DNA of 64,000 bases from Sipunculus nudus (taxonomy: Eukaryota > Annelida > Sipuncula > Golfingiida > Sipunculidae): contig CM049306.1 in the NCBI GenBank assembly GCA_026874595.1, forward strand, positions 83,416,142-83,480,141, read 5' to 3'. Positions 287-48,958 of the stretch are shown here, one piece after another. Under the pieces are notes generated by a model, which saw only the letters and a program-made list of their open reading frames with translations, was not told where the DNA came from and ran no database searches. The translations under genes were made by a program, and so were the position numbers. Numbering within the stretch: the first letter of the stretch is position 1; the number at the start of each line of letters is the position of its first letter.

Positions 287-3200
287 GTAAGTGGTATCTT
301 AAGTCTGTGGGACATTATAATGGTGACATTCCATCACTTTAATGTTTTTCAGATGCCCTCATTTGCTTAAAGAATTCTGCATTTCTGTAAATGTTTTGTT
401 TAATATGTTTTAACTTGTAACAAGTGTCAACAGTGTCCTCAGAATAGACAGTGAGTGAGAGTTTGATTGTTGAATGTCAGCTGCTGATAGTAAAGCATTT
501 GATTGAACCTGTGAGCTTATGTGAATGGTGTGGCATCATCCATCATCTGTATGCTTTAGACCCATTCTTTCTCATAATCAGCAGGAACTAGCATCAACAA
601 ATTTTTATGCAAAAAATAAGTCATCTAAACTTTTTTCTGCTATTTGCATTGACTTAGATTTTATAGGGAGAAAGCTTTAAAAAAAAACTTCTTCTCAAAA
701 ACTGTCCAGCCAAATTGTTCAATTTTTCAAGAAATCTCTCTCAAGTTTGTTCATATGGTTCCAGTTTGATGATTTCCAGGAAGCTGAACTTGGTCATTTG
801 GCCAAAAAAGCATACTAAAATAACAATCCTGGGAAAGGGTTGGAGCTATCATCACCTGATTTTGCTTTAAATAGGCACACAATATTATTCTAAACATTTT
901 TGAGAAAAAAATCTTATGAATATGTCAGCATGAAAAAGCATAGTAGCTTAAGTCTCTCAATATGTGTGGGCTTTCTTGTACACAAGACTGGTGTCGACAA
1001 TGATTTTGCAGAGTGTATGTTCCTGCTTATTTCTCCGGGGGAATTGATATATCAGCCTGAAATTGTGCATATCTTAACATCTCAGATAGCTTTGTCTACA
1101 CAAGACTGGTGGCGCCACCTACAATAATTTTTGCAGAGTGTATGTCCCTACTTGTTTCTCAGGAGTGATTGGACATGTCAGCCTGAAATTGTGCATGTCC
1201 ATGCATCTTATATAATTTCATTGTATTAAAGACTTGTGGCACCACCTGCACTTATTTTTGGGTTTTCATGCATCTGTTCACATAGCTCTAGAGTGATTTT
1301 AAGTATCTGAATAGAATTTTGCATGTCCATACATCTTTTATGGCTTTCTCATTCACAAGACTGGTGGCTCCTCCTACAATAATTTTTATGTTGTGTTCAT
1401 CCATGCCAGTATTTTAGGAGTGATGTTTGTGTTATTAGTGCTTGTACTTGGGTTCAAAATATTTAGTACTTGCCTTGTATATGTACAGTCACACATGTTT
1501 TTGAAAATTAATCAAGTACTCTTCCAGTTGTAAAGCATATTATCTTCAAGCATTATATCTGATGTATATCCCATTGCACAGGTTTATATTAGGCCTGTAG
1601 GCCTTGTTTATTCATTAAATATAATGATTGAAATGACAGTACTCTTATATTCCATTCAAAGAAATGAATTATACAATAAATTTGTCAAGTCAAAAAGAAT
1701 GTTAAACTCTGTAGCTTTGCAATCTGCAATTTTCATAATTTATGATATGTGCATTGTGCAAATATCTTTATTGGACAGTCCCCCGCCCCCTCCCCCCCCC
1801 CCCCCCCCGACATGCTTAACCAAAAGTTTGAAAAATCATAAGCTGGTGTATTGTATTAAATTTTACATACTAATGTCAGTAGTGTGAAAATATTCTTACA
1901 CTTGATTCATTTGTAAAAGAATATAAAAAATTAACCTGTTGTAAGATAACAGTTCATTCTGTTGGTCCAGTGGTTTTGTGGCTGCTGATCTTTATTTCTG
2001 GCTTTGTCTTTCAGGAAACTATGTTCTCAACTATTTGGGTTCAAGGCCGAAACTTGAGAACTTTGTGTCCCAGGCATTGGTTCGTGTAAGTATAGTTAGA
2101 CTGCTTACTTGTGAGAAATTATCATTTGTGCTCATGCCATATAAATTTTGCTATACATAATTGATTTTATAGTTTTCATATTGCTCTGAAATTTAACCAT
2201 AAAACTTGTGAAATAAGATCACTGGTGGGACTGGCAAGGGGTTGCCTTAATTGTATCTGCCAAAACAGAGTTTCGCGGATACTATGTTTTCAGCTGGACG
2301 CTGCCGCCGCATAGGTGTTTAGAGAACTCCATAACCGCTGGGTTATTTACGAATACCGGGTTTATGTTCAGATGACATGTGAACTGCTGCGCCCTGATTT
2401 AGTTTTGACCTCTGACCTCTCCTCTCTCCAGTACGTCCATCTGTGCGTCTGTTTTGATACATTAACCCACATATCATGGGAACCATTTGACCGATCCGGG
2501 AAAATTTTTGCACAAATGTAGCCCTTGGATAGCTTCATAACATACATAAAAAATGGTGGCGCCAACTGCAACCGTTTTTGCACAACGTTTTTTCTGCCGT
2601 GGGATAAAATCACTCATATCTCTGCACTGGCTTGACTCATACACCTGAAATGTTGCATGTGTATACATCCTGGACAGCTTTCTTGATTTTATGACAGGTG
2701 GTGCCACCTACATTCACATTTACGCTGCAGACATCCAAGCTCATATCTGGGGAACCGTTTGACCGATTGGGCCAAAATTTTGCATGTGTATAGATCTCAC
2801 ATAGTTCTTTATCATACGCATAAATGGTGGCACCACCTGCAACCATTTATGCACAGCGTCCATCTGTTTGTCTGCCGTGGGATAAAATCACTCATATCTC
2901 TGCACTGGCTTGACTTATCCACCTGAAATTTTGCAGGTTTATACATCCTGGACAGCTTTCTAGATTTTATGGCAGGTGGCGCCACCTACATTTTTGTTTA
3001 CGCTGCAGACATCCAGGCTTATATCTCTTGAACCGTTTGACCAATTGGGCCAAAATTTTGCATGTGTATAGATCTCACATAGCTCTTTATCATACACAAA
3101 ACTGATGGCGCCACCTGCAACCATTTTTGCACAGCATCCGTCTGTTTGTCTGCTGTGGGATAAAATCACTCATGTCTCTGCACTGGTTTGACTTATCTGC

Positions 3201-6200
3201 CTAAAATTTTTGCAGGTTTATACATCTTGGATAGCTTTCTTGATTTCATGACAGGTGGTGCCACCTACATTCACACTTACGCTGCGGACATCCAAGCTCA
3301 TATCTCGGGAACCGTCTGACTGATAGGGCCAATATTTTGCATGTGTTTAGATCTCACATAGCTCTTTATCATACGCACAACTGGTGGCGTCACCTGCAAC
3401 TATTTTTGCACAGCGTCCATCTGTTTGTCTGCCGTGGGATAAAATCACTCATATCTCCGCAGTGGTTTGACTTTGCATTTGTATACAAAATTGATAGCTA
3501 TCTGGATTTTGTGGTAGGTGGCACAACCTACATACAGATTTTCGGCTGCAGACATTCATGCTAATATGCAACACACCTCACTCTATTTTCCCTTGTTACT
3601 CAATCCATGCCTCACTTCACCCGTCCCACTCTGATTTCGGCAGATACATGTGGTCGCTTGTCGACTACCCGTATTCTAGTTCAAAGGTGGTCTTAGACAA
3701 GTTGTTTCAGACAGGTTCTACTGTGTATCATGTTTATCAATATCAGTGTCTTCATGTTTTAAAAAAAAATGCCACAGTCATTTTGTGATATATACATAAT
3801 GATTGATAAACACTTGTTTTGTGAGTACTGTGTTCAAATATGAGTTCAAATATGTCCCTTACTGATCACTACTATGACATTATAATGACAAAAATGATAC
3901 TTTTATAAGATATATTGTGTACTGCTCCATCACCTTAAGAGAATTTTTATTGCTTTTCTGTGGTCACAGAAGTTTCACTATTCACTCTGTTGTAGTTGTT
4001 TGCCAGAATCACCAAACTTGGGTGGTTTGATGTCAGCAAAGATGACTATCTGTTTAGAAGTGTCACTTCAGATGTCAGCAAATTCTTACAGGTATGGACT
4101 AAGTGTATGCTTGACATAGAATTTAAACATTTATGAGAAAGAATTTACTTATTATGCTTGTTTGTAAGAAATGTTTTAATTTTTTTATGATATCTCTTTA
4201 TAGATAAAAGCAGATAAAACTTATAATTAAGTAAATAAAATCTAGTAATTATGCATTTAACATAGGAATCATTTGCATCAGTGGTAATCAAGGGAGACTT
4301 CTTATGCTATGTTTTATGTAATTCTTTCTTGAAAAACCTTATGGATCCATTTTCCAAAAGTAATTCCAAGGAGTAATCCAGAGGTAATGTAGCATTTTTA
4401 GCCCAGCTGACTGTAAGTCATCTGAACTATAGTGATCACCCTTTGTCCGGCATCCGTCTGGCAGTCTGTCCATTAACAGGGCACAAATCATAACAATTAG
4501 GTCATGGTGACCTATATTTTGTGACTTACGGGCCGAAAACATGATTTTGAGCACCCAGACAGTCAGCCGGGCAACAAATTGTATCTATTAGGCCTAGAAA
4601 CCTCTAACCTGACATTTTGAGATATCCTAGGCAAGTGTCCTTGGAAAGCTGAAACTAGGTCACTGTGACCTATATTCTGCGACCTATAGAGAAAAGATGT
4701 CATATGAGCACCCTGAAGGTCAGATTGGGACAAATTGTATCTGTCGAGCCTAAATTAAAGAATCTTCTAACACACTATCCTTGGAGTTTCTGGGCAAATC
4801 TCCTTGGAAACCTGAATTTAGGTCATGGTGACCTATATTTTATGACCTACGTGTCGAAAACATGATTTTTAGGCATCCAGAAAGTCACACGGGGCACAAA
4901 TTGAATCAGTAAGTCCTAAAATCCTCCAATGTGACTTTTAGGGAGGTCCTAGGCAAATCTTCTTGGAAACCTGAATTAGGTCATGGTGACCTATATTTTG
5001 TGACCTACAGGCCGAAAACATGATTTTGAGCACCCTGAATATCAGATGGGGACAAATCGTATATGTGAGGCCTAGAATCTTTTAACTCAATATCCTGAGA
5101 GTTTCTAGGCAAATCTCCTTGGAAACCTGAAATTAGGTCATAGTGACCTATATTTTGTGACCTATGGGCCAGTCATGTATTTGTTATGCCTAAAATCTTC
5201 TAATGTAACATTCTGAGATGTCCTTTGCCAATGTCCTTGGAAAACTGAAATTAGGTCACCATGACCTATATTTTGCAACCTATCATAAAAAATATCATTT
5301 AAGCACCCAGACAGTCAGACAGGGCACAATTTGTATCCATTAGGCCTGGAATCTTTTAATATAAAAATCAGGGAGGTCTTAGTCAAGTGTCCTTGGAAAC
5401 CTGAAATTAGGTCACGTCGACCTATATTGTGTGACCCATGGGCTGAAAAATGATTTTGAGCACCCAGACAGACAAGGCACAAATTGTATCCATTAGCCAT
5501 AGAATCTTCTAACATGACATTCAGGGGAATCCTTGGCAATTCTCTTTGGAAACCTGAAATTAGATCATGGTGACCTATATTCTGCCAGCTATGGACCAGA
5601 AACATGATTTTGAGCACACAGACAGACAGGGTACAAATTGTATCCATTTTCCTTGGAACCCTCTATTTTAAAATCCAGAGGGGTCCTGGGCAGGTCTCCT
5701 ATGAATCCTGAAATTTTTATTTTCTGTCCATTTTTTCAACACTGTAACTTAAGCCATAGGCTATTCTCACAGACAATATATAACATTAATAAAAAAAATT
5801 AGCACCCATTCTAAATTAGCTGAGCGCCATGGCCCATTGGCCACTTGTTAAAGTTTTATAAAATTCATTTTAAATAATTTTAACAAATTAAAATTAACAC
5901 CATTTTTATGCATAATGTGATTATATATTGGCCGAATTGGGTGTAAAATATTGGTGCAATTTAGAATTGTTAATTCTGAATAAAGTTATATTTACAGGTA
6001 ATCAATATTTTGCAAATTTATAAAACATTTGAATATATATAATATATATAAAATTGAAAATAATGTGGTATAATAAAAAATGATAATAATATATAATAAA
6101 AATAAGTGATCTAACTGAAGATATGTGTCACTGCTGAACATGTCAACAATTTATCAAAGAGTCAACCAGTGATTATGGTAATAAATTCAATCTTATGTTT

Positions 6201-11500: not shown

Positions 11501-14500
11501 GCTGTGACAACTCAATTCCAGATTTACTCATTACCAAAAAGTGGTGGGCCGATTGAGTTTTATTGAAAGTCAGTCAGTTTCCTGCCACTTTCAAGTGCTC
11601 GATTGACAAAGGCAACTATTGATTACATCATTATCATGACTTTTTTTCCCAGAATGCATATTATCTTATAGGCTTAAATTATTCTTCCAATTTTTACAAA
11701 TTCCGCGCCTCAAATAATTAGTCTTTGTTCCCATACTAACTTCCGTATGTAACTGAGTATAACACAGTAGATGCGAGAACAGAGTACTTAATAAATCTCT
11801 GTGAACTGGCAGAGAGCTGCAGAATTAGTAGGGAGTTTTGTAACAAGATGTACATTGCACAGTATGGGCAGTATGGCGTTAAAATGCTCCATAAATTCTC
11901 TAGGTCTATGCAGCAAGTAGATGTCCTGAATAGTGGTTTAATTCTTGTTTATTATAAATAATTACAATGAAACTTTGAAAAGCATATCTTACTTATAATA
12001 GGAAAATATAAAAAAGGCAAAACTTCTTTTCGTTAGGTAGAATTACTAAGACATGCTGCCTGGGTTGAGAAAGTACAGTTTCACAGATAATTGCATATTT
12101 CATTATATTTGCCTGAACCGATTACTAATCGATCATTGATCGGTTTGCTTAAACCGATGATTCAATTATGAAAAAGGAACTGACTCCCCCCACTAATACC
12201 AAACTGACAATCTCAGTTACCACCGCTAATTGGCCTGGTGCATGAGCAGATGTAACCTGGAACAAACTTACTCAGCAGAACTATTAAGTGGGTAGTGTTT
12301 CCACAAGCTGTTAATATAATCAGGTCTGAGGATAGACTATTACAGCTTTTTCCATGTAATAGTAATAGTAATGGACTAAAAAATTTGAGCTGTAATAGTA
12401 ATAGTAATAAAAACAGAAGGCAAAGTAATAGAGTAATACATATTACTTCCTGTGAGCCCCTTGATCATGAAGCATATCAGCAAATAATGCTAAACAGACT
12501 CAGTTCTTGTCCAGTAATTGCCCAGGATGTGCCTATTGTGGAGGCAAGCATGGGCCAGCTGCCACATTGCTGGTGACCACTGGTGCTAATTACATAAGAG
12601 AACTGGACAGAGTAGGTCACAGTCAAATAAGTTACCTGGCACAATCTGACCTTTGATTAGTAATCCATGGATAAACAGAGGCATGTTTGATGTTAAATAG
12701 TGTAGGCTATTATTATTGTGACATGTACATCTTGTCTCACATCCATCAATCCATATGCTCTGTATTCAAAATAATTTAAAAATATACATGTACTTGACTA
12801 GTACTTGAAATGTACTTGATTTTTCAAGTACATTTTTAGCAAGTACAAGTACAGTACAAGCACTGTACTTGGTAAAAAGTACCAAGTACAAGTACAGGCC
12901 AAGTACTGAAAATTTTGTACTTGAGTACAAGTACATGTACTTGACCCAAGCCTGCTGAGTGTGTGTGTTTATTTCAGGCCCTCTCATGTATAATGCTGAC
13001 CATTTTTAGCTCAGCTGACTGTAAGTCATCTGAGCTATAGTCGTGGTCCTTTGTCCGTCGTCCGTCCGGCCGTAAACAGGGCACGTTTTAAAACCGTTGG
13101 ACCTACGAATCCAAAATTCTGCATACCATAAGATGTCCCCAAAATCTCCTACCATACCGAAAATTGGGTCATTAGAACTTCGTTCCTTCGAGATATTAAG
13201 GAAAAACCTCCGTTTTCCATAAAAAAGCAATTGTTACACTTCAAGTCTGCCTAATATCAAAACCACTGATCTGTTTTTGATCATATTTAGTATTCATATT
13301 CTTCCATATATTTTCTGTGCACATACCAAAAATTAGGTCAGTATTGGGTATTATTAGCTCAGCTGACTGAAAGTCATCTGAGCTATAGCGATCACTCTTT
13401 GTCCGTCGTCCGTCTGTCCATCCGTTAACCAGGCACAAATCGTAACCGCTGGACCTAGAACCTTGTAACTTGGGATTCTAAGAGTTTCATAAAAAATCTC
13501 CTTGGAAACCAGAAATTAGGTCTCTGTGACCCATATCCTTCGAGCTATGTGGCCCCAAAGTACCCCCCAGAAAAGTCAAAAATTTCATACAAAAACTTCA
13601 ATATCTCATTAACTACTTGACTGATGGTCATGATTTTTGGCATACATATTGATCATGAGATGTTACATCACTTCCTGCAGACTGGTGGCGCCACCTGTAT
13701 TTTTCGATTTTTTACGAATTTTTTTTCTCTATTTTTGAGACCTTTAAAAATGTGAACATCTGTTAACAAGGCACAAATCATAAAGACTGGACTTAGAATC
13801 TTAATTCTTGACACACTGAGAGGTCCATGAAAAATCTCCTTGGAAAACCAGCAATTAGGTCTCTGTTACCCATATCCTTCGAGCTATGGGGCCCCAAAGT
13901 ACCCCCAAGAATAGTAAAAAATTTCATACAAAAACTTCAATATTTCAATAACTACATCACTGATGGTCTTCATTTTTGGCATACATATTGATCATGAGAT
14001 GTTCGATCAGTTCCTGCAGACTGGTGGTGCCGCCTGTACTGTTTGATTTTTTACGATTTTTTCCTCTATTTTTGAGACCTTTGAGGATGCTGTCATCTGT
14101 TAGCGTGGCACAAATCGTAACGACTGGACCTAGAATCTTCATTTTCGACACACTGAGAGACCTATGAAAAGTCTCCATGGAAACCAGAAATTAGGTCTCT
14201 GTTACCCATATCCTTCGAGCTATGGGGCCCAAAATTACCCCCCAGAATAGTCAAAAGTTTCATACAAAAACTTCAATATCTCAATAACTACATCACTGAT
14301 GGTCATGATTTTCGACATACATATTGATCATGAGATGTTTCATCAGTTTGTGCAGACTGGTGGCGCCACCTGTATTTTTCAATCTTCACGAATTGTTTTC
14401 TCCATTTTTGAGACCTTTAAGGATGTAGTTATCTGTCAACAGGGTACAAATCGTAACGACTGGACCTAGAATCTTCGTTCTTGACACACAGGGAGACCCA

Positions 14501-17500
14501 TGATAAGTCTCCATGGAAACCTGAAATTTGGTCTCTGTTACCCATATCCTTTGAGCTATGGCACTCCAAAGTACAGCTCAGAATAATGGAAAATTTGATA
14601 CAAAAGCTAAAGTATCTGAACAACTAATGCAGAGATAACCATAATTGTTTGCATGGATATTGATCATGGAGTGTTTCATAAGTTTCTGCAGACTGGTGGC
14701 ACCACCTGTATTTGTTCGGTTTTTTTACGAAATTTTTCTGTATTTTTGAGACCTTTAAAGATATGAACATCTGTTAACAGGGCACAAATCATAAAAACTG
14801 GACCAAGAATCTTCATTCTTGACACACAGGGAGACCCATGAAAGTCTCCATGGAAACTTGAAATTAGGTCTCTGTTACCCATATTCTTTAAGCTGTATGG
14901 GTCCAAAATACCCCCCCCCCCCCCCAGAATAATGGAAAATTTGATACAAAAACTGCAGTATTTCAATAACTACAACACTGATGGTCATGATTTTCGGCAT
15001 ACATATTGATCATGAGCTGTTCCATCAGTTTCTGCAGACTGGGTGTGCCACCTCTATTTTTTTTCAAATTTTTACGAATTTTTTTCTTTTTTTTTGAGAC
15101 CTTTAAAGATGTGGTTATCTGTCAACAGGGTACAAATCGCAACAACTGGACCTAGAATCTTCATTCTTGTCATGCAAGGAGGCCCATGAAAGGTGCCTGT
15201 GGAAACTTGAAATTAGGTCTCTGTTACCCATATCCTTCAAGCTATAGGACTCCGAAGTATCCCTCAGAATAATGGACAATTTGATACAAAAACTGAAGTA
15301 TCTGAACAACTAATGCAGAGATCACCATGATTTTTTGCATGGATATTGACCATTAAGTGTTTTTATTAGTTTCTGCAGACTGGTTGAGCCACCTGTATTT
15401 TTGTATCCGCCAAAACGAAGTTTTGCGGATACTATGTTTTTGACCGAGTTCCTCCACCGCGGCGGCGTTCGTTTCCAGAGAGCTCCTCGGAGACTAATGG
15501 ACCGATTTTTCCCAAACTTACACCTATTATCGGGTCACGTGTGAACTGGTGCCTAACCAATTTGCGTTGACCTCTGACCGTTCCTCTCTATCCAGTGTCC
15601 ATTTGTGGGTCTGTTTCCACTCATAAACCCTCATATCTCGGGAACCGTTTGACCGATCAGGAAATAAAATTGTTACAAATGTAGCCCTTGGATTGCTTTA
15701 TAACATACACAAAAAATGGTGGCGCCACCTGTAACCATGTTTGCACAGTGTCCATCTGTTCATCTGCCTTGGGTTAAAATCACTCATATCTCTGCAGTGA
15801 ATTGACTAATTCACCTGAAATTCGTCATGCGTATACATCCAGGATAGCTTTCTTGATTTTGACAGGTGGCGCCACCTATGTTCACGTTCACACTGATGAC
15901 ATCCAAGCTTATATCTTGGGAACCGTTTGACCGATCAGGAAATAAAATTTATACAAATGTAGCCCTTTGATAGCTCTGTAACATACACAAAAAATGGTGG
16001 CGCCACCTGTAACAATGTTTGCACAGCGTCTGTCTGTTAGTCTGCCGTGGCCTAAAATCACTCATTTCTCTGTAGTGGTTGGACATAACTGCCTAAAATT
16101 TTGCAGGTTTATACATCGTGGACAGCTTTCTTGATTTTATGACAGGTGGCGCCACCTACATTCTAGTTAACGCTGCACACATCCAAGCTCATATCTCAGG
16201 AACCATTTGACCGATTGGGCCAAAATTGTGCATGTGTTTAGATCTCACATAGGTCTTTATCATACACAAAACTGGAGGGGTTACCTGCAAAGATCTTTGC
16301 ACAGTGTTTGTCTGTTTGTCTGCCATGGGCAAAAATCACTCATATACATGTAGTGGTTTGACTTTTCTGCCTAAAATGTTGCAGGTGTATACAACTTGGA
16401 CAGCTTTCTGGATTTGTGGTAGGTGGCGCAACCTACATACACATTTAGGCTGCAGACATCCATGCTAAAATGCAACATACCTCACTCTATTTCCCCTTGC
16501 CACTCAATCCATGCCTCACTATCCGATTTTGGCAGATACATGTAGTCACTTGTCGGTTACCCGTATTCTAGTTTTAAAAGTTTACACATTTTTCTCTATT
16601 TTTGAGATATATAAATACAGACTAAATCTTGGCCTGTTGGTTAATCTGTTTGATGCTTCAGTTGAATGGGTATATACTACCATTCTAATGATAAAATTTC
16701 CTTTTGCGAATCTCTTCCCAGTCAGCTGAGCGTCATGACCCATGGGTCACTTGTTTTGAAGTTATAGGCCCAAATATAATGCAATTTTTTAAAAATCAGG
16801 AAATATATTTGCTCACTTAACATGAGAATTGCTGAAGCTGAAGACTTTTTTTCAGGAATATAACTTTATTTAATCAAGATTAAATTGTTTACCCAAAATT
16901 AGATCTGAATTTTGCAAATTTTTCAAGTTATTAGCATAAATAAAAAATTAATACCTTAAATTTTGTCCAACTTTGGCAGTGGCACGTTTTTTCCCTGTAA
17001 GCACTGTTGATTTAATTTTCACAGCATATATACATAAGGATTTATTCTTTTAAAATCTGAAATTTCAAAGAAATTGTTTGAAAAGAGTAGCTTTTATTCA
17101 AGTTTTCATACACCATGTCAAGTGTTGTTTATATCTGGTCCACCTAGTAGTACAGCCTTCACTTGCATTATGTAACCCACCCAGGCAGCTTACCTTGACC
17201 CAGCTTGGCCACTACTAGCAGGCTTCTCCTCTGCCCTGCACTCAACCCCCCCCCCCCCCCCAGTTGGTGCATAAACTAGATAAAAGTTATAATTTTCTGT
17301 ATTTTATTTTATTCTTGGACATGCTACATTTTAGATTTTGGATTGTACCACAAGGGTTACAATGATTAAAGTGCACATTTAATTGTGTCCACAAAGTGAT
17401 GTATTGCTATGAAAGTATGGATGTTCATCAGATAAGTAATGCTTTACTTCAGAAGAGTAAAACTTCACCAGGTGTGAAATTGACTATTAATTCCAGTTAT

Positions 17501-20500
17501 TAATTATAGCTTAGATTGTAATTAGCATAATGATATTGTTTGTCCCTCATTCAACCAACAGTGTGTATACTTTATTTGAAAAGATGTTTTTATTTTATCA
17601 AATTTACTGAATCTTTTATTTTATTTCGGTGAATAAAATTAAGCTTGTCCTGAAAACTCCAATGTGCAAAACTTTTTAATAGGAATTCAAGGAATAATTT
17701 TGTAGATGCCATGTTGTGGCATTATTTTCTTTTACATTCAGTTTAAACATTTGATTTAAAAATAATAAAATATATGTGTATGCATAATATGACCCAATGT
17801 GAGCTACAATCTGGATATATAATGATTGCAACTTAGAATTCTAATATTTTAACTTATATTTTCACTTTTATATTACAAATTTAAAACACTTGTAAATAAA
17901 AAAAATGAATCAGATAAAAACTATTAATGAAAAAAGTGGATGTGCTAAAAAAATAGGCTTGTATATAAACTTAAATGCATTATTCCTTTGAAAGTGAAAT
18001 GAAGGTATTAGTCCATTCTGTCCACTTGCCTGTCCATCTGTAAATTTTTCATATGCATCACAGTATCTCAAAACTTTTACTGTTTTTCTTCATGACAGTC
18101 TTGTCAGAGTATTAGTTTGCAATCATATATTGAGAACTTTACTATAACCAAGTAGGAGGACCCTTTCCTCTTAGCTTTTCATATGCTTATATAGATATAA
18201 AACATTACAATAGAATATTTTTCATATTTTGCATTTGCAAAAATTTCAAACTTTTGTCATGACCCATGGGTCCTTTGTTTATATTCTGGATTCTCCACAT
18301 CATTGTTTGGCTAAAACTGAATAAATACCAGACATGGTGCAAATACTTTGCAAATGTATATGAATATGAATATGAATATGTACTCCATTATAAAATTTTT
18401 TGCATAAGAATGGGAATTCAGGTAAAAATGAAAGTATTTGAATACCAGTGCAAATACTTTTAAAATGTATTCATGAATGCATATATTCTATAATATTATT
18501 TTAATAATTAGTTCAGTTATATTTTATTAAAAAAAATCATATGATTCTCTTATTATTTTTAATAAATATTATATTGGCACAACATTTGTTATTAAATTTT
18601 AATAAATAGTTGAACTCTTTTATTTTATGTGCTGCTTATAAGTTATATGGCCAGGTCAAAATCTGTGTGACAATAGCACTCCATTTGTTAATAAAATAAA
18701 TGAAATAAATCCTCTTCCCTGTCTCCAAAAATACTATCAAAATCATACATAAGCTAAACACCAACAACTCATAATAAAGCTTATATTTATTACCACACAA
18801 AACCAGCATATGCCTCTTTCCCAAATCATATTTTTTATCATATATAACAGCTGAGCGCCGTGACCCATGGGTCCCTTGTTGTATATTTCAGGCCCTGGTA
18901 TGTATAGTGCTGAATGTATTTGTATATTTCAGGCCCTTTCCTGTATAGTGCTGATAGCGTCAGTGAGGCGGTCATTGTTCAACAATGAAGAACGAGGAAA
19001 ATTCCTGAATCATTTGGTGCTGGGAGTTAAAGCTATTCTGGAGAACCCAAGTGTAGGTTTTTTTTGTCTGTTCAGCAGCTTATTGTATCCACCAAAACAA
19101 AGTTTACTCCGAAACTTACTCATATCTCTGCAGTGGTTGGACTAATTCACTTGAAATTCGACATGCGTATACATCCTGGATAGCTTTCTTGATTTTATGA
19201 CAGGTGGCTCCACCTACATTCAACTTTACGCTGATCCAAGCTCATATCTCGGGAACTGTTTGACCGATTGGGCCAAAATTTTGCATGTGTATACATCTCA
19301 TATAGCTCTTTATCATGTGCAAAACTGGTGGCGCCACCTGCAGCCATTTTTGCACAGCATCCGTCTGTTTGTCTGCCGTGGGATAAAATCACTCATATCT
19401 CGGCAGTGGTTTGACATATCTGGCTAAAATTTTGCAGCTTTATACATCCTGGACAGCTCTCTTGATTTTATGACAGGTGGCGCCACCTTCATTTTAGTTT
19501 ACGCTGCAGACATCCAAGCTCATATCTCGGGAACCGTTTGACCGATTGGGCCAAAGTTTTGCATGTGTATACATCTCATATAGCTCTTTATCATGTGCAA
19601 AACTGGTGGCGCCACCTGCAGCCATTTTTGCACAGCATCCGTCTGTTTGTCTGCCGTGGGATAAAATCACTCATATCTCGGCAGTGGTTTGACATATCTG
19701 GCTAAAATTTTGCAGCTTTATACATCCTGGACAGCTCTCTTGATTTTATGACAGGTGGCGCCACCTTCATTTTAGTTTACGCTGCTCATATCTCGGGAAC
19801 CGTTTGACCGATTGGGCCAAAGTTTTGCATGTGTATAGATCTCACATAGCTCTATATCATATGCAAAACTTGTGGCACCACCTGCAACCATTTTTGCACA
19901 GCGTCCTTCTGTTTGTGTGAAAAGGGCAAAAATCACTCATATACATGTAGTGGTTTGACTTATCTGCCTTAAATATTGCATATGTATACAACTTGGACAG
20001 CTTTCTGGATTTTGTGGTAGGTGGCACAACCTACATACACATTTTGGCTGCAGACATCCATGCTTATATGCAACACTTCACTCTTTTTACCCTTGCCACT
20101 CAATTCATGCCTCACTTCACCTGTTCCACTCTTGATTTTGGCGGATACATGTAGTTGCTTGTATTCTAGTTTGTATTATGAAAGTACAAAATGCAAAGTT
20201 AAAATCAGATTTGCTGGAATGCAAGTCAGATAAAATAATATTTCAGTTGACGAATTTTTACTAGAGACTAATCTGTGATATAACATTGATTTAAATTATA
20301 TTTGGCTGTTTCAGTTTAGTTTTAGATTTTGAAATTGACTGACATCTTGAAAGATCCACATAGTTGTGTGTTATCAGAAAAAAAATGTAATTTTGAGATG
20401 CTTTTCAGAAGCGGAATGGGGGGGGGGGGGGCAGGGGGCCTGGACCCCCCCCCCCCCTTTTTTTTTATCCGAAGCATCTTTTTTTAAGGGCTTCAGACAA

Positions 20501-26500: not shown

Positions 26501-29500
26501 ATACGGACAAGGATTATACATTTCAACTGCTAAAATAAAATGCCTCAATTCTAAAAAAATTGGGTTCAAAGAAAGCTCAGAACTTTTTCTTTGGACTGGA
26601 ACTTGAGATAAAAAATAACTGTAATTTATGATGGAGGTTGTAATTAGATTTATTTGTGGTATCAGGGATAATAAATTTTCGAGACCCAGCTTAATATTGC
26701 CATGGAGTTCTCCTGAGCAGTACGTTCCATTATGCTGGAGCACCAGAGAATGAGGGGTATATTTGAAGGTAATCCCTAGCGATGGTATTAGGCAAGATAA
26801 GGTTAGTATCTAGGGGCCATTTCCCATAATCCTTTCATGACCCTCTGAAGGAATTTGTCCTTCATTTTATCATAAACATTTAACTAGGGATTCTCTACTG
26901 AACAAAATCCTTGTTCTTGTTTGACTTTTGGAACCACAAAGCACTTACGTTGGGCTGTTAATTCCTTAGAATCTGCTGGGAGGAAACTTGTATATGCAAT
27001 TATTATGAAAAATTAACATAAGTGAACTCAAAGGAGTATATGAAATGACATTATGTTCGTGCATAATGTCATACGCCACATCATTTTGTTATTAACCTTT
27101 TAAGATGAAATATACTTGATTAATCCCTTGCCAGGAAATTATATTGTGGGCATTGGCTCTGGTAATTTTCAAAGACCCAAAATTATTGCTGGTGAATATT
27201 TAATTGAATAATCAGTTTGAAGTTCCCATAAATTTTTGTGTTCACTTGAAAGACTTTTATAAAACCTATTGATGCAACATTAATTGTACACAAACAGCTT
27301 ACTCTAATTAACCAATAAATGTTATAACATGTTTGCCACAGCATCACCAACTTGAAGTACTGGGGCAGCAGTGAGCAGATCATCTCTAAGACACTACAGC
27401 TGCTGAGTGACTTGTCTGTGGGCTACAGCAGCGTCAGGAAGCTTGTCAAGCTGGAGGCAGTGCAGTTCATGCTCAGCAATCACACAGTCAGTCTAATGTT
27501 AACATAATCACTTAATGTATTTTTAGTGTGTTGAGAATAAATGTTCCCATTGAACAGTATTCTGTTTATAACTTCAAACTTCTGAATATGGCATGTCAAA
27601 AATAAATAACTGATATGTTCAGCAAGCTTCAGATTAGGTATTCCCTTTATATATTAAGTCGTTTCTACAAAGACAATGTTCAAATCTGTAAAAAATTCAG
27701 AGAAAGCCTAATATTTATAGTTATTTCATTGAATAATTTATATCTGTTCTTTCAAACTAAACATTAACACATTTCAATTTTTTTTTACTGTGCATAATTT
27801 TACCTTACATACTATTTGTACAAGGTCTGTGTAACTTCTTTTAACATAGTAAACAGATCGTGAGATGTGTGTGAGAGTAACATGTGCCACTAGACCAAAT
27901 TTTTCTCATATTTTGTTTTTCAGAGTGACAATTTCCAATACAACAGTACTTAATATGTGAGTGACATGTGGTGAGGGGCCACGTTTTAAGGTTTCTCATA
28001 TTTTGTGTTTCAGAGTGACCATTTCCCGTTCCTGGGTGTGAACAACAGTACTAACCACGTGAGTGACATGCGGTGCCGGACCACGTTTTACACTGCCTTA
28101 GGACGACTGCTGATGGTAGACTTGGGGGAGGATGAGGAGAGATTTGAACAGTTCATGATGCCACTAACTGGTAAGCAGCATCACACATCACCTCATCATT
28201 CAGAGCTTGATCAGATATTACTATAAAGGAAAATGTAGATATATATAATTGTTTCCCCAGACAAAGTCGGGGGATACTATGTTTTCATACCGGTGCCGCC
28301 GCCGCATATAAATCTTGTTGGCACGATAACTCAAAAAATATTTCACGGATCTGTACCAAACTTGGTATATATATAGATATGGGTGAGAGGACGACGCCTA
28401 TTTAAAATGAAGTCATGACCTTGACTAGGAGAGTGTCCTTGACCTTGAATAGGTCCAATTTTGGGAAAAAACACAAAAATTCTTAAATATCTCATGAAAT
28501 CTTGCATGGATTGATCCCAAAATCAAGTTGATGGAAGATCATGGATAGGGTTGTCATGTTCCAGAAACTGGTGGCGCCACCTATGATTCTTTGTTTTCGT
28601 GCCGTTTAATACCCCCAGAATTGCCACTTGACAGTACTGTGAGCATTATAAGTAAAAAACTAATGAACAGATTTCTTTTTATATTATGCATATACATAGA
28701 TATGGGTTATGGGATGATATTTATTTGAATTGGGGTCATGACCTTTCCTGTGAAAGTGGCCTTGACCTTGAACATTGAAATATATGGTGAAAATCACACA
28801 AAATCATTAATATCTCAATAAGGGATGCATGGATTGGTCCAAAAATCAACTTGACCGAAGATCTTGGATAGTAATGTCATGTACCGGAAACAGGTGGCAC
28901 CATCTGTTATTCTTTTACTTGTTTTCGTGCCATTTAATACCCCGTCATTGCCACTTAACAGTACTGTGAGCATTATAAGTTAAAGACTAAAGAACAGATT
29001 TCTTTTATATTATGCATATACATAGACATGGGTTAGGGGATGAGGTATATTGAAATTGGGGTCATGACCTTTTCTATGAGAGTGACCTTTTCTATGAGTG
29101 TGGTCTGATATTAATTGTTGCTGAAGATGGGGGGCCTATTCTTGAAGGGGGGGGGATTAATTGTCTGGGGATACTATGGCACCTGCGGTGCCAAGAAATA
29201 TTTAGTTAATTATGTGATTTACTAATAACATGAATAATATTAAAAAAATAGTTCATCCCATACTTACACAGGAGCTTCTTTGTTGTATACTTTCAACATA
29301 AAGTTTGTGCTTTATCTTAACATTGCAGCCAATAAGCTCATGTTTTCCTTCATGTTTACCTATTTGTGAACAGGATATGTAAAGCTATTTTCATAGTTGT
29401 GTGAGATGTTTAGAAATCCTTTTGAGTGTGATATTGAGGGAGTGTTTACTTTTCATTATGGTAAACAGACGCAGGTGGACTGTGTATACTCTCACTCAGA

Positions 29501-35500: not shown

Positions 35501-38500
35501 TGAATCAACGGAGTTCAGCGATTCTGCACTTAGAACACATACAAATGAACATGACTATTGTTCAGTAAAGCTGCATAAATATGTAAAGTGGATAGTAAAA
35601 TGTTTACAGTCCAACTTGTTTTCTATAAATTCTGCTATTTGTTTTATCTATCTTTATTGAACAGGACTACCCCAAGTTGAGCCAGAGTTACTATGCCTTG
35701 TTAGAGTGTCTAGCTCAGGATCATATGCCATTCATCAGCAACTTGGAGCCACGTGTGTTCTTGTACATATTGTCAACGATCTCAGAAGGCCTAACGGCCC
35801 TCGGTAAGGAAACACAAATTGTATGCTTCCTCTATATGTCATTTTCTGGGCTGGTGAAGAGAGTATGTTAGTAAGATTAAATTTATCTTTGCTTGATTCT
35901 ATAGATATTTTTCCTAATTTTTAGACCTTTTGTATCCAAACATTGGTTGGTAAGATCAACTTCTGATTGATTTATTGATAACAGTTCAGCATTTGATTTA
36001 TAACAGGTATGCCAATCATCTGGGCCATGTTGCAGTCGCCTAATTGTATCCCCCAAAACGAAGTTTTGCGGATACTATGTTTTTGACCGGGTTCCGCCCG
36101 TTTCCGGAGAACTCCTCTGAGACTACTGGACAGATTTTTCCGAAACTTACACAAATTATCGGGTCACATGTGAACTGGTGCCTAACCAAGTGACCTTGAC
36201 CTCTGACCTTTCGTCTCTGCCCAGTGTCCGTTTGTGCGTCTGTTTCCACACATAAACCCATATATCTCGGGAACCGTTTGACCGATCCGGAAAAAAATTT
36301 TACACAAATGTAGCCCTGGGATAGCTTTATAACATACACAACAAAAGGTGGCGCCACCTGCAACCATTTTTGCACAGTGTCCATCTGTTCATCTGCCTGG
36401 GGTTAAAATCACTCATATCTCTGCAGTGGTTTGACTAATTCACCTAAAATTTGGCATGCGTATACATCCTAGATAGCTTTCTCGATTTTATGACAGGTGG
36501 CGCCACCTACATTCACGTTAACGCTCCACACATAAACCCATATATCTCAGGAACCGTTTGACTGACCGGAAAAAAATTTTACACAAATGTAGCCCTGGGA
36601 TAGCTTTATAACATACACAACAAAAGGTGGCGCCACCTGCAACCATGTTTGCACAGTGTCCATCTGTTCATCTGCCTGGGGTTAAAATCACTCTTATCTC
36701 TGCAGTGGTTTGACTAATTCACCTAAAATTCGGCATGTGTATACATCCTAGATAGCTTTCTCGATTTTATGACAGGTGGCGCCACCTAAATTCATGTTAA
36801 CGCTCCACACATAAACCCTTATATCTCGGGAACTGTTTGACCGATCCGGAAAAATTTTTTACACAAATGTAGCCCTGGGAATGCTTTATAACATACACAA
36901 CAAAAGGTGGCGCCACCTGCAACCATGTTTGCACAGTGTCCATTTGTTCATCTGCATGGGGTTAAAATCACTCATATCTCTGCAGTGGTTTGACTAATTC
37001 ACCTAAAAATCGGCATGCGTATACATCCTAGATAGCTTTCTCGATTTTATGACAGGTGGCGCCACCTACATTCACATTAACGCTCCACACATAAACCCAT
37101 ATATCTCGGGAACCGGTTGACCGATCCGGAAAAAAATTTTACACAAATGTAGCCCTGGGATAGCTTTATAACATACACAACAAAAGGTGGCGCCACCTGC
37201 AACCATGTTTGCACAGTGTCCATCTGTTCATCTGCCTGGGGTTAAAATCACTCATATCTCTGCAGTGGTTTGACTAATTCACCTAAAAGTCGGCATGCGT
37301 ATACATCCTAGATAGCTTTCTCAATTTTATGACAGGTGGCGCCACCTACATTCACGTTAACGCTGCAGACATCCAAGCTCATATCTCGGGAACCGTTTGA
37401 CCAATCAGGAAAAAAAATTTACACAAATGTAGCCCTTGGATAGCTTTATAACATTCACAAAAATGGTGGCGTCACCTGCAGCCATTTTTACACAGCGTCC
37501 ATCTGTTTGTCTGCCTTTGGTTAAAATCACTCATATCCCTGCAGTGGTTTGACCAAATTACCTGAAATTCAGCATGCTTATACATCCCGCATAGCTTTCT
37601 TGATTTTATGACAGGTGGTGCCACCTACGTTCACATTCATGCTGTAGACATCCATGCTTATATCTCCGGACTCATTCAACCAATCAGGAAAATTTTTTTA
37701 CACAAATGAAGCCCTTGGATAGCTTTAAAACATACACAAAAATGGTGGCGCAACCTGCAGCCATTTTTGCACAGCGTCCATCTGTTTGTCTGCTGTGGGA
37801 TAAAATTACTCATATCTCTACAGTGGTTTGACTTTTCCACATCAAATTTTGCTTGTGTATATATCTTGGATAGTTTCAAATAACAGGTGGCGCCACCTAC
37901 AATCATGTTTATGTGGCAGAGATCCGTTCTAATATTTAACACATGTAACTCTATATCCCCTTGCCACTCAATCCATGCCTTACTACACCCGTCCTTCTCT
38001 GATTTTGGCGGATACACGTAGTGGCTTGTCGACTACCCGTATTCTAGTTTAAAAATATGTTTACATGAATATTGGATTCATTTGGTCTGAAGTATTTTAA
38101 TGTCAGTTAATTTAAGTACAACATAAATTATGTGTAGCAGATATACTGATACAAATATTTAATGACCATGCATTAAAATGAGACTGGCACCACTCCACTA
38201 AATGATGACCAGTAGAGCTGTAAACAGCAAGCTAAATGTTGTTGTAATATTGACCTAGTAAATATTATCAACAACCAGACCAGACATGTCTATTTTAGTG
38301 CATATGACCTCACAATGTGATGATATACATTATTACAGAATTTAATGCTGTAATGGTTGAGTTCTATGTGGAATGGTTCGATGACCCATTATTAGTGCTA
38401 GTATACATTAAATGCTCTATTTTGTTTCAGATACAATGGTGTCTACGGGTTGCTGTGCGACACTAGACAATATAATCACCTACTTGTTCAAGAGGTTGAC

Positions 38501-42483: not shown

Positions 42484-42486
<3 letters not shown>

Positions 42487-42536: not shown

Positions 42537-42543
<7 letters not shown>

Positions 42544-43224
42544 TATGTCACAAGGCAAACACTGGTCCAATAAAAAAGTTGATACTTTAAGGATAAAGTC
42601 TGATACATCTTTGGGGGAGGACAATACGTAGTTGGTAAGATTTTCTAAGAATTGGATTGATGGTCCTTTTTGGACAAACTAATGGTAATCTGGCTTAGGA
42701 TGAACTCAGTCTTACAAGGTTAAATTCTGTAAGGTTTAAGTTTCTGCTTGGACAAACTTTGATCTTTGTGTCCTGTAGTTTTGCCTTGAAGCATATATGT
42801 TGTATACAGTGGGAAATCTGTTAACTGAACATGTTTGGGAAGTCCTCCAACTAAACACCCAGGTAACATAGTACATTCAGATACCTATCATTTAGATAAA
42901 TGGTTAATTTACATCATATTAATGAAAAAAATCAGAATTCCAAATTTATATGAAATTCATTGTTCAGATAATGGAGGCCCAACTGTATATATTACAGAGA
43001 GATGATGAGCAATTGACACATTGATGTATGTCATGTACAAATCCTAGTGTGGAAGCTTAGTGACCTGCTATCAGAATCAGATCAGGGTATTTATTGTTGG
43101 GGGGAGGGTGGGGCGGTGTGCATGAGCTGTAATTGTACATTGATATCTGTCTTAAGGGGAAATTGTCAACTGAATTTGTAAATTTATCATTTCTGAAGGT
43201 TTTTCATTTTTCTAGAGCAATAAA

Positions 43225-45180
43225 TTGTCTCTGGTTCAGAAAGCATACAATATGTTTATGCTTTTCATGTTATCTTCAATATATTTTCTGTAAAATCCTG
43301 GGGGATCTTTTGCTTTTTGCCCTCGTCTTTTCTGGTCATAGGATCTTTATTATTTTACAAACTGCTTAAACAGAGGTCATGGCTTTTAGTTCTGCTGAAA
43401 TATATTGGTTACAATATTGCATGCTTTATTAATATATTTCTCTTTAATCAAGACTTAATTAATTGGGCAACATAAAATAGCAGCACAGAGCTATGCAGGA
43501 TTTTTCAAAGTATGTGAAATGTCTTATTCATCTCTCTGCAGGTGATGATGTTAATAAAATCAAAAGCTAACAAAAAATATAAACAACCATGAAGCATTTT
43601 TAAAGGCTCAAGAGAAAGTTCAGGAAAGGGCAAATATTGTATTTAATTGAATTATGGCTATATTTTTTTAATTGATGTTGATACAAACTAATATATTTGG
43701 TAAAGCTGTATTTTAGTGAAACCCTACAAATACCTGTATTTCTACACTTGTATTTTATAGCTGGTTCTGTTCCCCAGTTTTCCCGTAATTTGCTACATGC
43801 AGAACATGCCAGATACTCAACTGCTGTTTGGCTAAATATAATTTGCTATACCAACGTAAAATTTCTTATTTTATCCATAATACAAGGAATATTTACCGTT
43901 TCATAAGATTTACTAATGACTGCATTTTGTTCCTAATAATCTATGGTCATCTTCATCATTTACCACAGTTATATCTTAAGTGTTTATAGGCACAGTTTCA
44001 AGTTCTTTTAGACTGCATTTAATTTAAAGTTTTTCTCATTGTAATGCTGCTGACAGAAGGCCCATGCCCATTTCTGCATTAATACGGAAATGATGCCGCC
44101 CACATGGAAATGATGCTGCCCGATCAAGGCAGAATATGTTCTTGATATGAACAAAAACTGTTGCTATTACAAATGTCCCTTTGCGCAGTAAACTTATTTT
44201 ATATAATTCAGATGTCAACTTTTCAACTTTTTTTTTATTTTTGCATGCTACAATTAATTACTTTATTCAATATATTAAAAGTATAACAGTTTAGTATATA
44301 CCACTGATAAGTGTTTCAATATTTTCCATAAAATGTGCCATACTAGTAAAGGTTATATAGCTAATTAAGAGTTAATAAAACAAATATATCTCTTTGATTT
44401 AAATTAATGAAATCAGTACATGAATATGTGATACTGTATGTAACAAATTAAAATTCATAAATCTTGGGAGATTTTAACAGGCAGTAATATTAAATAAGGG
44501 CAGTATTGAATCAAGCATTTGGCTAAGTTACAAAATTATATCATTGCTGAACAGAGTTTGGAATGGAGGTATACAGGCTGCTATTATTTGAATAATTTTG
44601 GATGAGATAATTCTTTTTTTTTCAAATTCTAATAATAAATTTAAACGCAAGCCTGTTAAAGCTTGTAGCCAAAAGGCCAGTTTCTTTCTCAGTGTATATT
44701 CAGAGATGGATCACAAAAATTTTTAATGTAAATTTAAAAATTAATTTTTCCAAAATAAGAGGCACGTAAATGGACAGACTAGAAATTCTGCTCCCTTAAA
44801 TAACCAGTCACTAAATTTAGCCATATAAACCATGTGATCTTTTTGATATGTAGCATGTGAACAAACCTATCCAGATGTATCAGTAACTAACACAAGATGG
44901 TTCTCGATTTTTCATGAACTCTTTGTCCTGCAGTATATCCTTTCGATAAGAAAGCCAAAACTTCCTATTTTACTGGTGATGTTATCGTCATTTAAGGGTT
45001 AACCAAATGAGCATTAATTATCTAACATGCCATTTGAGGATATTTCGTATGCATACATAATACGAAATAACAAGATAAACTATCCAAAGCAACGCCACCT
45101 GGTGATTAGTTCATTCCCCAAAATGCATTTGTACTTCTAACATGCCACGCTACAAAGAGCATAGCTCAGATGATAATTTT

Positions 45181-45211
<31 letters not shown>

Positions 45212-48013
45212 ATATGTATGTTTTCTTGTCTCATATTGATGTGGTAATTAGCAAAGCTAAATTACTGGCATCATGTAATTTGTAACAAATATATGTAGTG
45301 TGCTGGCGTGGATGGGAACTTCAGCCGGGGTATAATATTATAAAAAAAGGACACATGGGAATGGTCAGGTGAGGGGTGGGTGGACCGTTGCTTTCATTCC
45401 AGGATAGGTTTTGTGATTTTATAAATGAAGGGTAATTTTACTTTTCTAGCTGGTTACAGGTAACACTTTGAAAACAGGACATCATCGTTTAACGCATCGT
45501 TTAACACTTGATAAAAGTTATAGTCTCACGGCTTGAGAGGAGTGGTTGTAACATAACTTCTATCAGCGTATGGGTAGTTTTATTTCCGGGGCAGGGTGGG
45601 TGTTCTTCAATACTAATTTCACAAATGGAGACTTTTTATCAAATTTAGACTTAATTGTGATGAATACAAAAACAGACACACAGTCGTTCATAGACATTAA
45701 TTAATCCTAACCCTTTCTTGCAGATGTATGAAATATTATGAATAAAACCATTTTAGCAGTATTAGTTAATTTAACTAGTCCAGAGGCAATTATAAAGAAA
45801 CCACCCACATTTCTATTATCGTCAGGAGGGTTGAAGGATAAAGAACTAAAGTTGTTCTTTTACAACAGGATTACGATAGTAACAGGGTTAAGGTCGGTTC
45901 TCGGCTGGTAATGGTGTTCAGTTCAGAGTAATTTGCTTCACATTACAGAGTTTGCTTGAGTTTGGGTTTCGTCATGTAAATTACGTTATATCTGTGTAAT
46001 GTTTCAATCTGTGCAAAGGTTATCAACCACACGTTCTTATTTTGTAAGTTTTGTACATGTTCTGACAGCCGTGGGTGTATCATGATCGCTGTTAAGTTTT
46101 GAGAAATAAATTTCTATTGGTTTGGTAAAATGCGTTTTCGTTAGTAACAGTAAGACTCCAGCAGAGGTCTCAACTGTTCCATGATACAAGAGGAGCGCCC
46201 CTGCAGCTGACTCCCAGCAGGCCACGTTTCAAAACTTATAATTTGAGGATTTGGGTGTGGTAAAAAAAAGGGTCATTCCACACTCAACTTTGCCGATACA
46301 CATCCTCTTCCCCTCTAAATTTTTGCCTTGATGCTGTCATTTGATTACTTTCGAGTCGCATATCCGCACCCTTCTCGAATCCTGGCATGTTTATTTCTCC
46401 AATTTTCTCTTATCAGCTCAATGGGGGGGGGGGGGGCATTTTGCGTACACATCAAAACTTGCGTGCAACAGGTTACATGTAAAAATTAGGGGTAAACCGC
46501 CAGTCGGATGAATTATGAACACGTAATATCCCAAACGCACAAAGGCTGAAAGTTATTGGTAATTTTCATTATTGGCAGGCCTGGAACAGAACCTTTTTCT
46601 ATAATTTTCTTCGCCATGGTGCGCTACTATTCCTTCCAATATGCTGCCACAATCTTTAAAAAGAGTCCTAGGAAAAGACCCCCCACCCCCCAAACAATTT
46701 CTTGCGACTGATTGTGACCGACATTAACACTAGGTACAATTGTTTGCAATTGTCTTTGATTCAATGCCACCACAACATATGCTGTGATTTCAGGGGCGTC
46801 AATACAGAGGGTTATATATCCTCCAACACACACGCACACTTTTTAGCAAGGGTGATGGTCAATGCCATTATCCCCCTGATATTCAGAGAATAATTTTTAT
46901 ATATTGGAAATGATATACATATATATATTAATAATTAGAAGTATAGACTTTGGTTCTATTTCTGGGTTAACCCTTAACTAATTTATATCTAAACCTCGTT
47001 TAGAATTAATATATACGTGAAACATACCTTATTTTAAACCTTATACTTAATTGTTATAATATTCGAAATGTGTCACACAGACAATAAAAGGTACACATGT
47101 TTATATGTGTGAGTGTCCCAGCGTCGATTATCCTCCCACGCTTTCGAAGCATCGTCCCCCTCCTACCCCCCCCCCCCCCCCCCCCACCCAAACCCTCGGA
47201 GATAATTGACGGCACTTTGTGAGTTGGTACTCTGTGTGCACAATTTCCTTCGGGTACACCACGACGCGTCCCCAGTTTGTGAAAATGACCTAATCCCTAC
47301 GATTTTCGACGATTCCTACGCTACAATTTGCTATGACTTGAACTTAAGAGACAAAGAAAGGCTTAGAAATCATATTGTGTGAGGTCTGCTTACACCCCCA
47401 TCACACTCGGGCTACATTTCCAGTGTGTCCCCAAATTTGTGCGCACAAAGTAAGATCTTTCTACGTGGTCGCAAGACAGGAGAAATGGTAAGGACGTTGT
47501 TGAACTTCTGAAATGTTCAAAATAAATATGGTGGGGACGTGGTCGCATCAGGAAACAATAAAGGCAAGTAATGCGGTATTGATGTAGAAACGACTATAGT
47601 AAAACCTAGTTTGTACTTCATAGAAGCGTCGCGCGGACGGGAAAGATTGTTTGCACGGCGTGCTAAATTTACCCAGTTCCTCACACCATCACTTCGGTTT
47701 CAACCATAGGTTTGCAAACACGGAATCAGAAACTTTGTCTGCAAAGTGTTCAGCTTTAAAGGCAACACGTTATACTTGACGCAAAAGCTGCACTTATGTT
47801 GGTGAGAAGGAATAGAGGACCTCTCTTTGACTTCCCCCATGCCTTCGGTGACACCGTTGTAGACTGTAAAGGTAGTTGATTGTTGAACGAAGATGTGGAT
47901 ACAAGAACGAATGATAAGATGCAGTGCTTGGTACAGTTGTATAAGGACCGAGTGGACGCAATGAGAACGCGTGTTGTTTGGCCAAACTATGGAATGTAAC
48001 CTGATTTCAATTA
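43225..48013. other. Intergenic stretch, no gene recognised
   Basis: Mostly AT-rich with short ORFs only. It holds a T-then-G homopolymer block at 45178-45210, a G run near 46424, a C run at 47167-47185, and 'aacgccacctggtgatta' near 45090 (CTCF-core-like). 47100-47700 is more GC-rich and may be an eroded repeat ('ggggacgtggtcgcatcagg'). I cannot assign any product. Confidence 0.6.
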
Positions 48014-48958
48014 CTGTATCCGACAAAACAGTTTTGCGGATACCATGTTTTCACGCGGGTTCCGCCGCGGCGTTCATTTTCGGAGAACTATTAGGCCCTT
48101 GGACCGACCTTTCCGGAACCCAGCATGGTTATTCACTCACCTATTAAGTAGTGCGTAACAAAGACTAGTGGCGCCACCTGCAATCCGTTTGTACGGTATG
48201 AATCTGGATGTCTTAGTGATAACAGCCCATATCTCAGGAGTAGTTCAATATATTGAGCTGAACTTCTGCATGTCCATAGATCTTGGATCTCTATCTGCTA
48301 CTCGAAACTGGTGTCTAGACCAGACAGGTGGCGCCACCTACCTTCCCGTTTTCGTAGAATACATTGATGACCTTTTCTCAGGAGTAGTTTGTCGTATTGA
48401 CCTGATATTATACCCATAGATCAAGTTTGCATACCTCCATCTCGTACACAAGACTGGTGGCGCGATCTGCAATCGTTTTTGCGTAGCGTCTATCCATATG
48501 CTTGCATTGGGTGAAAATTGCTCATATCTCAGGAGTAGTTCCATTTATTGGTCTGAAATTTGGCATGTCCGTCCATCTTGGAGAGTTTATTCATAGACCA
48601 AACAGGTGGCGCCACTTTCCTTTCCGTTTTCGTAGAGAACATTGGTGCCCTTTCCTCAGGAGTGATTTGTAACATTGGCCTGAAATTGTGGTGCCACCTT
48701 CTGTTCTGTTTTTTATAGAATACTTGAAATATTAAAATATTACAACATGCAATATTTTTATAGAAATATTGCATGTTGTATCCATCTGCAGATCGGTTTT
48801 TCGTTAAACTTGTTCATATGTGTGGAGGAAAGTGCCATCTCTGATGCCACAAATTTGGAGTCTTGTCATGTAAGGAACATTCAATGCCTTACTTTACCCA
48901 TGCCTCTGTGATTTGGCGGAAACATGTAGTCGTTTGTCGACTGCCCGTTTTCTTGTTT
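48014..48958 (+). mobile_element. TATCCGCC-type array-bearing element, copy 5 (divergent)
   Basis: Head TGTATCCGACAAAACAG with TTTTGCGGATACC, tail 'tggcggaaacatgtagtcg' and 'gactgcccg'. Units resemble the eroded array at 960-1430 ('atatctcaggagtagttc', 'cctgaaatt') more than copies 1-4, so this is a subfamily. Exact core at 48327. Confidence 0.7.

Follow-up and report, generated by a model that had tools for sequence, protein, structure and literature searches.

A symmetric 12-bp word, GGTGGCGCCACC, recurs through a family of tandem repeats in the genome of Sipunculus nudus. The source lineages of these repeats keep the palindrome, while single genomic copies of it decay like their neighbours, the central CpG fastest. 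Judged by this pattern of sequence change, the palindrome looks like a working part of a mobile element rather than a switch that the animal looks after. Together with the T that follows it, it is probably a cis-acting site for the propagation of HINEs (non-autonomous Helentrons) or for the growth of their arrays, and a candidate for binding by a sequence-specific factor.

In the window, the whole 64,000-nucleotide stretch of DNA analysed here, the interval 1108-48338 contains 23 exact copies of GGTGGCGCCACC, against 0.00 expected from 100 dinucleotide shuffles. At most one mismatch is found at 38 sites (0.03 expected), and sites with 0, 1, 2 and 3 mismatches number 23, 15, 11 and 4. Across the whole assembly (1,426,538,692 bases, 153 contigs) there are 111,729 exact copies, whereas the word in reversed letter order occurs 14 times. 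A sample of twenty 10-kb stretches, taken at 5 and 15 Mb on ten contigs, holds 35 exact copies, confined to 7 of the 20. An earlier note on this DNA had put the count at about 23 exact copies plus one-base variants, in at least three repeat types (TATCCGCC elements, a 337-bp array and a CCCCAGACAAAG element); both statements are borne out, and a fourth palindrome-bearing array lies at about 985-1411. The alternation of flanks that it described is also real: acag-core-tac monomers and act- or aat-core-tgc monomers, about 149 and 130 bp long, follow each other in turn (e.g. cores at 36347, 36496, 36626 and 36775). The palindromes and the repeats that carry them are as follows.

1108..48338 (first to last), no strand assigned: the 23 exact GGTGGCGCCACC palindromes, by exact-match count.
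985..1411, plus strand: array of about three diverged monomers with cores at 1108 (exact), 1235 and 1363, from the core-masked profile.
2252..3682, plus strand: TATCCGCC-type HINE with 8 alternating monomers, cores from 2555 to 3528, from its ends and monomers.
13357..16755, plus strand: composite of a AGCTCAGCTGACT-type HINE with the 337-bp array and a nested TATCCGCC-type HINE, 3' end CAGCTGAGCGTCATGACCCATGGGTCACTTGTT, from its ends.
13488..15402, plus strand: 337-bp array of 6 units, cores at 13684, 14023, 14359, 14695, 15041 and 15382, with weak core-masked homology.
15402..16574, plus strand: the nested TATCCGCC-type HINE with 6 monomers, cores at 15718, 15865, 15996, 16145, about 16274 (degenerate) and 16422, from its ends and the profile.
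19085..20172 (approximate, limits by eye), plus strand: TATCCGCC-type HINE with a degraded 5' end and 7 monomers, cores from 19203 to 20031, from the profile.
28255..29185, plus strand: CCCCAGACAAAG-type element with cores at 28570 (exact) and 28893, from its ends and the profile.
36045..38050, plus strand: TATCCGCC-type HINE with 12 monomers and 9 exact cores, from its ends and the profile.
48013..48958, plus strand: diverged TATCCGCC-type HINE with cores at 48167, 48327 (exact), 48456 and 48605, from its ends and the profile.

Within the aligned window monomers, the palindrome holds a fixed position in a unit of about 130-150 bp, whose consensus runs through CATATCTC, a TTTGAC block, TTTTGCATG, GATAGCTTT and the palindrome to a T-rich stretch. 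The four main TATCCGCC elements alternate two types of this monomer. The repeats had been described as otherwise different, which proved wrong: a profile with the core masked, built from the remaining families with each family left out in turn, detects relatedness beyond the palindrome. It recovers 3 of 3 monomers in the ~1-kb array (E 5e-8 to 4e-11), 3 of 4 in the 48-kb element (best E 8e-17) and 1 of 2 in the 28-kb CCCCAGACAAAG element (E 1e-7), and reaches a best E of 5e-15 in the four main TATCCGCC elements. In the 337-bp array the signal is weak, with one of six copies below E 0.01 (7e-4); the reversed-sequence control never fell below E 1.6. At the level of sequence profiles, the repeat families are shown to be remote relatives sharing one ancestral monomer, most weakly for the 337-bp array. 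Because the masked profile finds the families left out of it, common descent within one old repeat family is the best reading of the shared palindrome, rather than its introduction into repeats of separate origin. A one-mismatch site at 24309 was excluded from the family, as the tandem repeat around it, with a 140-bp unit, is another one and gives no match to the profile.

These monomers make up the central tandem repeats of elements that are built like HINEs. A 5' subTIR, a close inverted repeat and a GCC or GTCC microsatellite are present in the TATCCGCC, CCCCAGACAAAG and AGCTCAGCTGACT families; in many copies the subTIR and its nearby inverted repeat take the forms TATCCGCCAAAAC-gaa-GTTTTGCGGATA and AGCTCAGCTGACT-gaa-AGTCATCTGAGCT, and in the CCCCAGACAAAG type the 5' inverted repeat is imperfect. 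As in HINEs, central tandem repeats are combined with a microsatellite, here GCC or GTCC runs that follow the 5' end. A 3' subTIR and a 3' palindrome are seen in the TATCCGCC and AGCTCAGCTGACT families. In the TATCCGCC type the 3' subTIR is TTTTGGCGGATA, about 36 bp from the end, and the 3' hairpin GTAGTCG-cttgt-CGACTAC is by eye perfect in several copies and imperfect in others; on the 3' side of the AGCTC type, CAGCTGAGC is followed by TGACCCATGGGTCA (a hairpin by eye), and the 5' flanks of that family mostly finish in T runs. The CCCCAGACAAAG-type element shares GGATACTATGTTTTCA with the TATCCGCC type. Such end anatomy is described for HINEs in the parts of PMC4067079 and PMC7492417 that treat it, including mite elements whose 3' subTIR lies 38-60 bp from the end (PMC4067079). 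The whole assembly contains 143 matches to the Helitron-like Rep family PF14214. Nesting is recurrent: an identical junction between the 337-bp array and a TATCCGCC element occurs in 8 ends.

A second dyad, AGGTCAnnnTGACCT, is found in the window at 4499-5576, 6358 and 52209-52534, with 7 exact sites and 12 at no more than one mismatch, 8 of the 12 within the array at 4400-5715. Ten simulated sequences held 0, and the fixed-position stretches held 0 exact sites and 2 with at most one mismatch. AGGTCAnnnTGACCT has the letters of a perfect estrogen-response-type element. It may be to a second family of HINE repeats what the palindrome is to this one; by eye, one half of the 337-bp unit resembles the AGGTCAnnnTGACCT unit of 4400-5715, and the other half bears the palindrome monomer. 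AGGTCA-type half sites (TGACCTcTGACCT, TGACCTTGA), also noticed by eye, lie between the 5' end and the array in TATCCGCC and CCCCAGACAAAG elements, at 2402-2420, 15568-15580, 36190-36210 and 28413-28450. Other repeats of the window include clustered long inverted repeats made of CACTATTGTAATAA units (49060-50250) and an inverted repeat of 90 bp with a 9-base loop, 97% complementary (8615-8803).

Conservation of the palindrome was measured in several sets of monomers. Among 47 window monomers, selected by their core (2 of 49 sites dropped), the core is the best-conserved block of 12 columns, at 1.61 vs 0.62 bits. That selection raises the possibility of an ascertainment or alignment artefact, in which the core would seem conserved merely because sites were chosen by it. 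We consider this most improbable: a core-blind profile run on the 20 fixed-position stretches agrees with the window alignment and contradicts such an origin, as does the genome count of the word against its backward reading. The core-blind profile gave 79 matches, 71 of them spanning the core, with 29 exact cores and 22, 10, 5 and 5 with one, two, three and more changes; in copies with no more than three changes, CpG transitions make up 19 of 57. In these 71 monomers the core again tops the 12-column blocks (0.859, rest 0.69), with a small lead over the next non-overlapping block, ATATCTC (0.839). With 54 internal and 45 terminal changes, a block overlapping the latter is not depleted of changes on internal branches.

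The pooled set combines the window, 17 array stretches chosen for holding an exact core and the 20 fixed-position stretches chosen without it; 230 of 271 profile matches span the core, and 41 were dropped. After de-duplication, 181 monomers fall into six clusters, all with GGTGGCGCCACC in their consensus. Core divergence in the largest cluster (71 copies) is 0.084 vs 0.135 in the flanks, not significantly lower (p=0.67), and in the second (70 copies) 0.033 vs 0.110 (p=0.002). Comparison by pair depth, leaving out 11 of the 181 for a gap or more than four core mismatches (several resembling one-base alignment shifts), separates young from old differences. In recent between-locus pairs the non-CpG core differs by 0.064 and 0.078 and the flank by 0.039 and 0.082; since the core is no better conserved there, individual copies decay neutrally. 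In deep between-locus pairs the core difference is 0.092 at flank differences of 0.454 and 0.534. The ratio of core to flank difference falls with depth from 1.65 and 0.95 through 0.53-0.32 to 0.17-0.21 in the deepest three bins. Better conservation of the palindrome than of its flanks in genome-wide copies, a comparison that the earlier note had proposed, therefore holds strongly between diverged lineages (0.092 vs 0.45-0.53) and fails between recent copies; neutral decay of single copies, one half of what that note had set against its own interpretation, is what the recent pairs display.

The contrast between core and flanks arises on deeper branches. A tree was built on flanks only and changes were counted in non-CpG core columns for 218 of the 230 monomers, 12 being dropped for a gap or more than four core mismatches (again several resembling one-base alignment shifts). 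Terminal branches carry 54 core and 666 flank changes, or 5.40 vs 5.74 per column, and internal branches 14 and 644, or 1.40 vs 5.55 per column, fourfold fewer in the core (p=2.6e-6). With all 230 kept, the core has 102 terminal and 16 internal changes and the flanks 776 and 708 (p=4e-14), terminal changes per column then being higher in the core (10.20 vs 6.58), partly through alignment shifts. The fixed-position stretches alone give core 28 terminal and 4 internal vs flanks 286 and 303 (p=1.2e-5, 63 of 68 monomers; p=1.1e-11 with all 68), and the window alone 16 and 2 vs 295 and 240 (p=0.006). When the 116 blocks of 12 columns are ranked by internal changes, the core and the block shifted by one tie for the lowest count, and the eight lowest blocks all overlap the core; by terminal changes, CpG included, the core ranks 95th from the lowest. 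The tree and pair statistics take copies to evolve without gene conversion, and tandem copies and pairs are non-independent.

Lineages that keep the motif while single copies decay neutrally fit a cis-site for element propagation, not insulators maintained by the host. In the proposed mechanism, GGTGGCGCCACC and the following T would form a cis-acting site in the central monomer of several related HINE families. A sequence-specific factor, most simply a dimer on the dyad, would have to bind it for replication, transposition or array growth, and source elements that lost the site would stop propagating, or their arrays would stop expanding. A DNA hairpin is a less likely role, judging from folding of the single strand at five sites: the palindrome pairs with itself in 3 of 5 best folds, in a stem of 4-5 bp, and the one fold clearly stabler than shuffles (z -2.75) is a different one, the rest lying at z -1.52 to +0.79. 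As the folds are mostly no stabler than shuffles, a conserved hairpin is not supported.

The binder might instead be CTCF, whose core the palindrome had been said to resemble on each strand. The resemblance stands for the AGGTGGCGC half taken alone and for AGGTGGCGCC, which matches the core, AG[GA][GT]GGC[GA][CG], on the minus strand in each of the six cluster consensuses; it fails for the upstream half, CCASY in the vertebrate matrix, which the cluster consensus sites lack, scoring 0.2-11.7 of 31.8 bits. The best palindromes of the window and fixed-position stretches score 16.9 bits. CTCF-like sites of at least 17 bits number 15 in the same sample and 1 in the reversed control, and 0 of the 15 lie within two mismatches of the palindrome; of the seven sites of at least 20 bits, four strong ones (22.9-24.0 bits) share one 10-kb stretch. 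An intact CTCF orthologue is encoded in the genome: it is 56% identical to the human finger region, has CTCF as its best PDB match (1.6e-113) and shares SVYDF. Its fingers 3-5 agree at the usual contact positions. The CTCF query also matched zinc-finger frames, 320 in all, many of them close together among the matches listed (contigs C16, C7, C9, C6 and C11). These comparisons argue that the animal's CTCF would read the usual longer motif, for which the palindrome would be at most a weak site; CTCF as its binder is weakly supported.

We judge it very unlikely that the palindromes act as CTCF sites which the elements have dispersed and which serve the host as insulators or loop anchors. The fit of AGGTGGCGC to the CTCF core and the orthologue with conserved fingers 3-5 and YDF stretch would allow it, and precedents appear in the relevant parts of the literature: CTCF sites borne by transposable elements in mammals (PMC6598467) and a CTCF-like motif enriched at squid TAD boundaries (PMC9023564). 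Against it stand the missing CCA half, the stronger canonical sites enriched in the same sample, none of them palindromes, the neutral decay of copies on terminal branches, and the equal conservation, per column, of the half that CTCF could dispense with. That the element rather than the host gains from CTCF or another zinc-finger protein at the site (through open chromatin, replication or transcription), so that source lineages keep it, is somewhat less strained yet still doubtful. It would explain the same internal-branch constraint, and the conserved 3' T yields the minus-strand AGGTGGCGCC, next to which the six cluster consensuses have T or C. However, the conserved unit is the entire symmetric 12-mer plus one T, not one half, which is more than one asymmetric CTCF footprint needs.

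The palindrome could also be a signal for recombination, replication slippage or junction formation that drives growth of tandem arrays, such that arrays losing it stop growing; this is possible but on balance unlikely. Analogous proposals exist for palindromes and conserved boxes in mollusc satellites: the sections of PMC5139131 on these repeats report 13 of 16 array junctions of phBglII400 in a 12-bp palindrome and a conserved palindrome close to the repeat junction of DTC84, but also satellites with junctions away from palindromes. Of the 31 distinct element insertions in our data, 5 fall in the 30 bp on the 3' side of a core, where the share among T-run ends of the same sequence is 3.0% (517/17,082; p=0.002, post hoc). 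This enrichment was noticed before it was tested, the sample is small, and the monomer's own T-run may account for it. A broader and rather speculative proposal, to which we give little weight, would make the one symmetric word the functional core of a rolling-circle repeat superfamily: a dedicated factor would bind the more than 100,000 exact sites, source lineages would be selected to keep the word, and the same spot would serve as a landing pad for further elements, building nested composite arrays.

Several searches returned nothing that bears on the family. The extended motif turned up in one viral and one Geobacter contig, which we attribute to chance since the monomer profile gives no match better than E 1.2 to either, and an earlier scan of viral sequences for the motif found nothing. 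Rfam at the gathering score gave 0 matches to a known RNA family or ribozyme repeat in the window, and palindrome-bearing strings in the open-licence PubMed Central literature gave an unrelated match only. Two exon peptides of the host gene, presumably exportin-7-like, had no PDB match. A tandem repeat at 38511-38728 (84-bp period, 2.6 copies) includes an exon-like stretch, a pattern suggestive of tandem exon duplication.

These findings bear on why HINEs carry central satellite-like repeats. A word kept by source lineages and lost neutrally by copies suggests that such repeats have a use for the element, and the 13-bp GGTGGCGCCACCT offers a bait for finding the factor. More generally, the presence of a motif in thousands of repeats does not by itself make it a host regulatory site, and comparing terminal with internal branches can tell an element-kept from a host-kept motif by sequence alone.

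Rodent SINE B2 carries CTCF sites and, like the monomers here, spreads a repeat-borne word resembling the CTCF core; it differs in element class, and the palindrome is without the full CTCF motif. Closer in class are ISX of Drosophila miranda and the HSF-1 sites in C. elegans Helitrons (PMC6598467, PMC8896005, in the parts describing them), rolling-circle elements by which a word resembling a binding site is likewise multiplied; their sites are used by a known host factor, whereas the palindrome copies here decay neutrally. DINE-1/HINE elements of Drosophila and mite share the end anatomy, optional central repeats and perhaps the T-rich insertion sites, although the sections of PMC4067079 on those repeats describe no conserved symmetric word. 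Bivalve BIV160/Cg170, pearl elements, DTC84 and phBglII400 form an ancient repeat family with two conserved motifs, and palindromes lie in or near the repeats of these rolling-circle elements, a likeness of description; the corresponding parts of PMC5139131 assign the motifs no definite role. The Pacific oyster Cg_HINE and Cg170/HindIII satellites differ in that the sections of PMC7492417 concerned describe neither their common segments as a 12-bp palindrome nor a test of terminal vs internal branches, and they are likened here by description, not sequence. In those sections they are otherwise much alike: non-autonomous Helentrons with a 5' subTIR and inverted repeat, microsatellite, 3' subTIR and palindrome, central tandem repeats of 138-181 bp (the consensus lengths shown), and diverged repeat types with common short conserved segments (PMC7492417).
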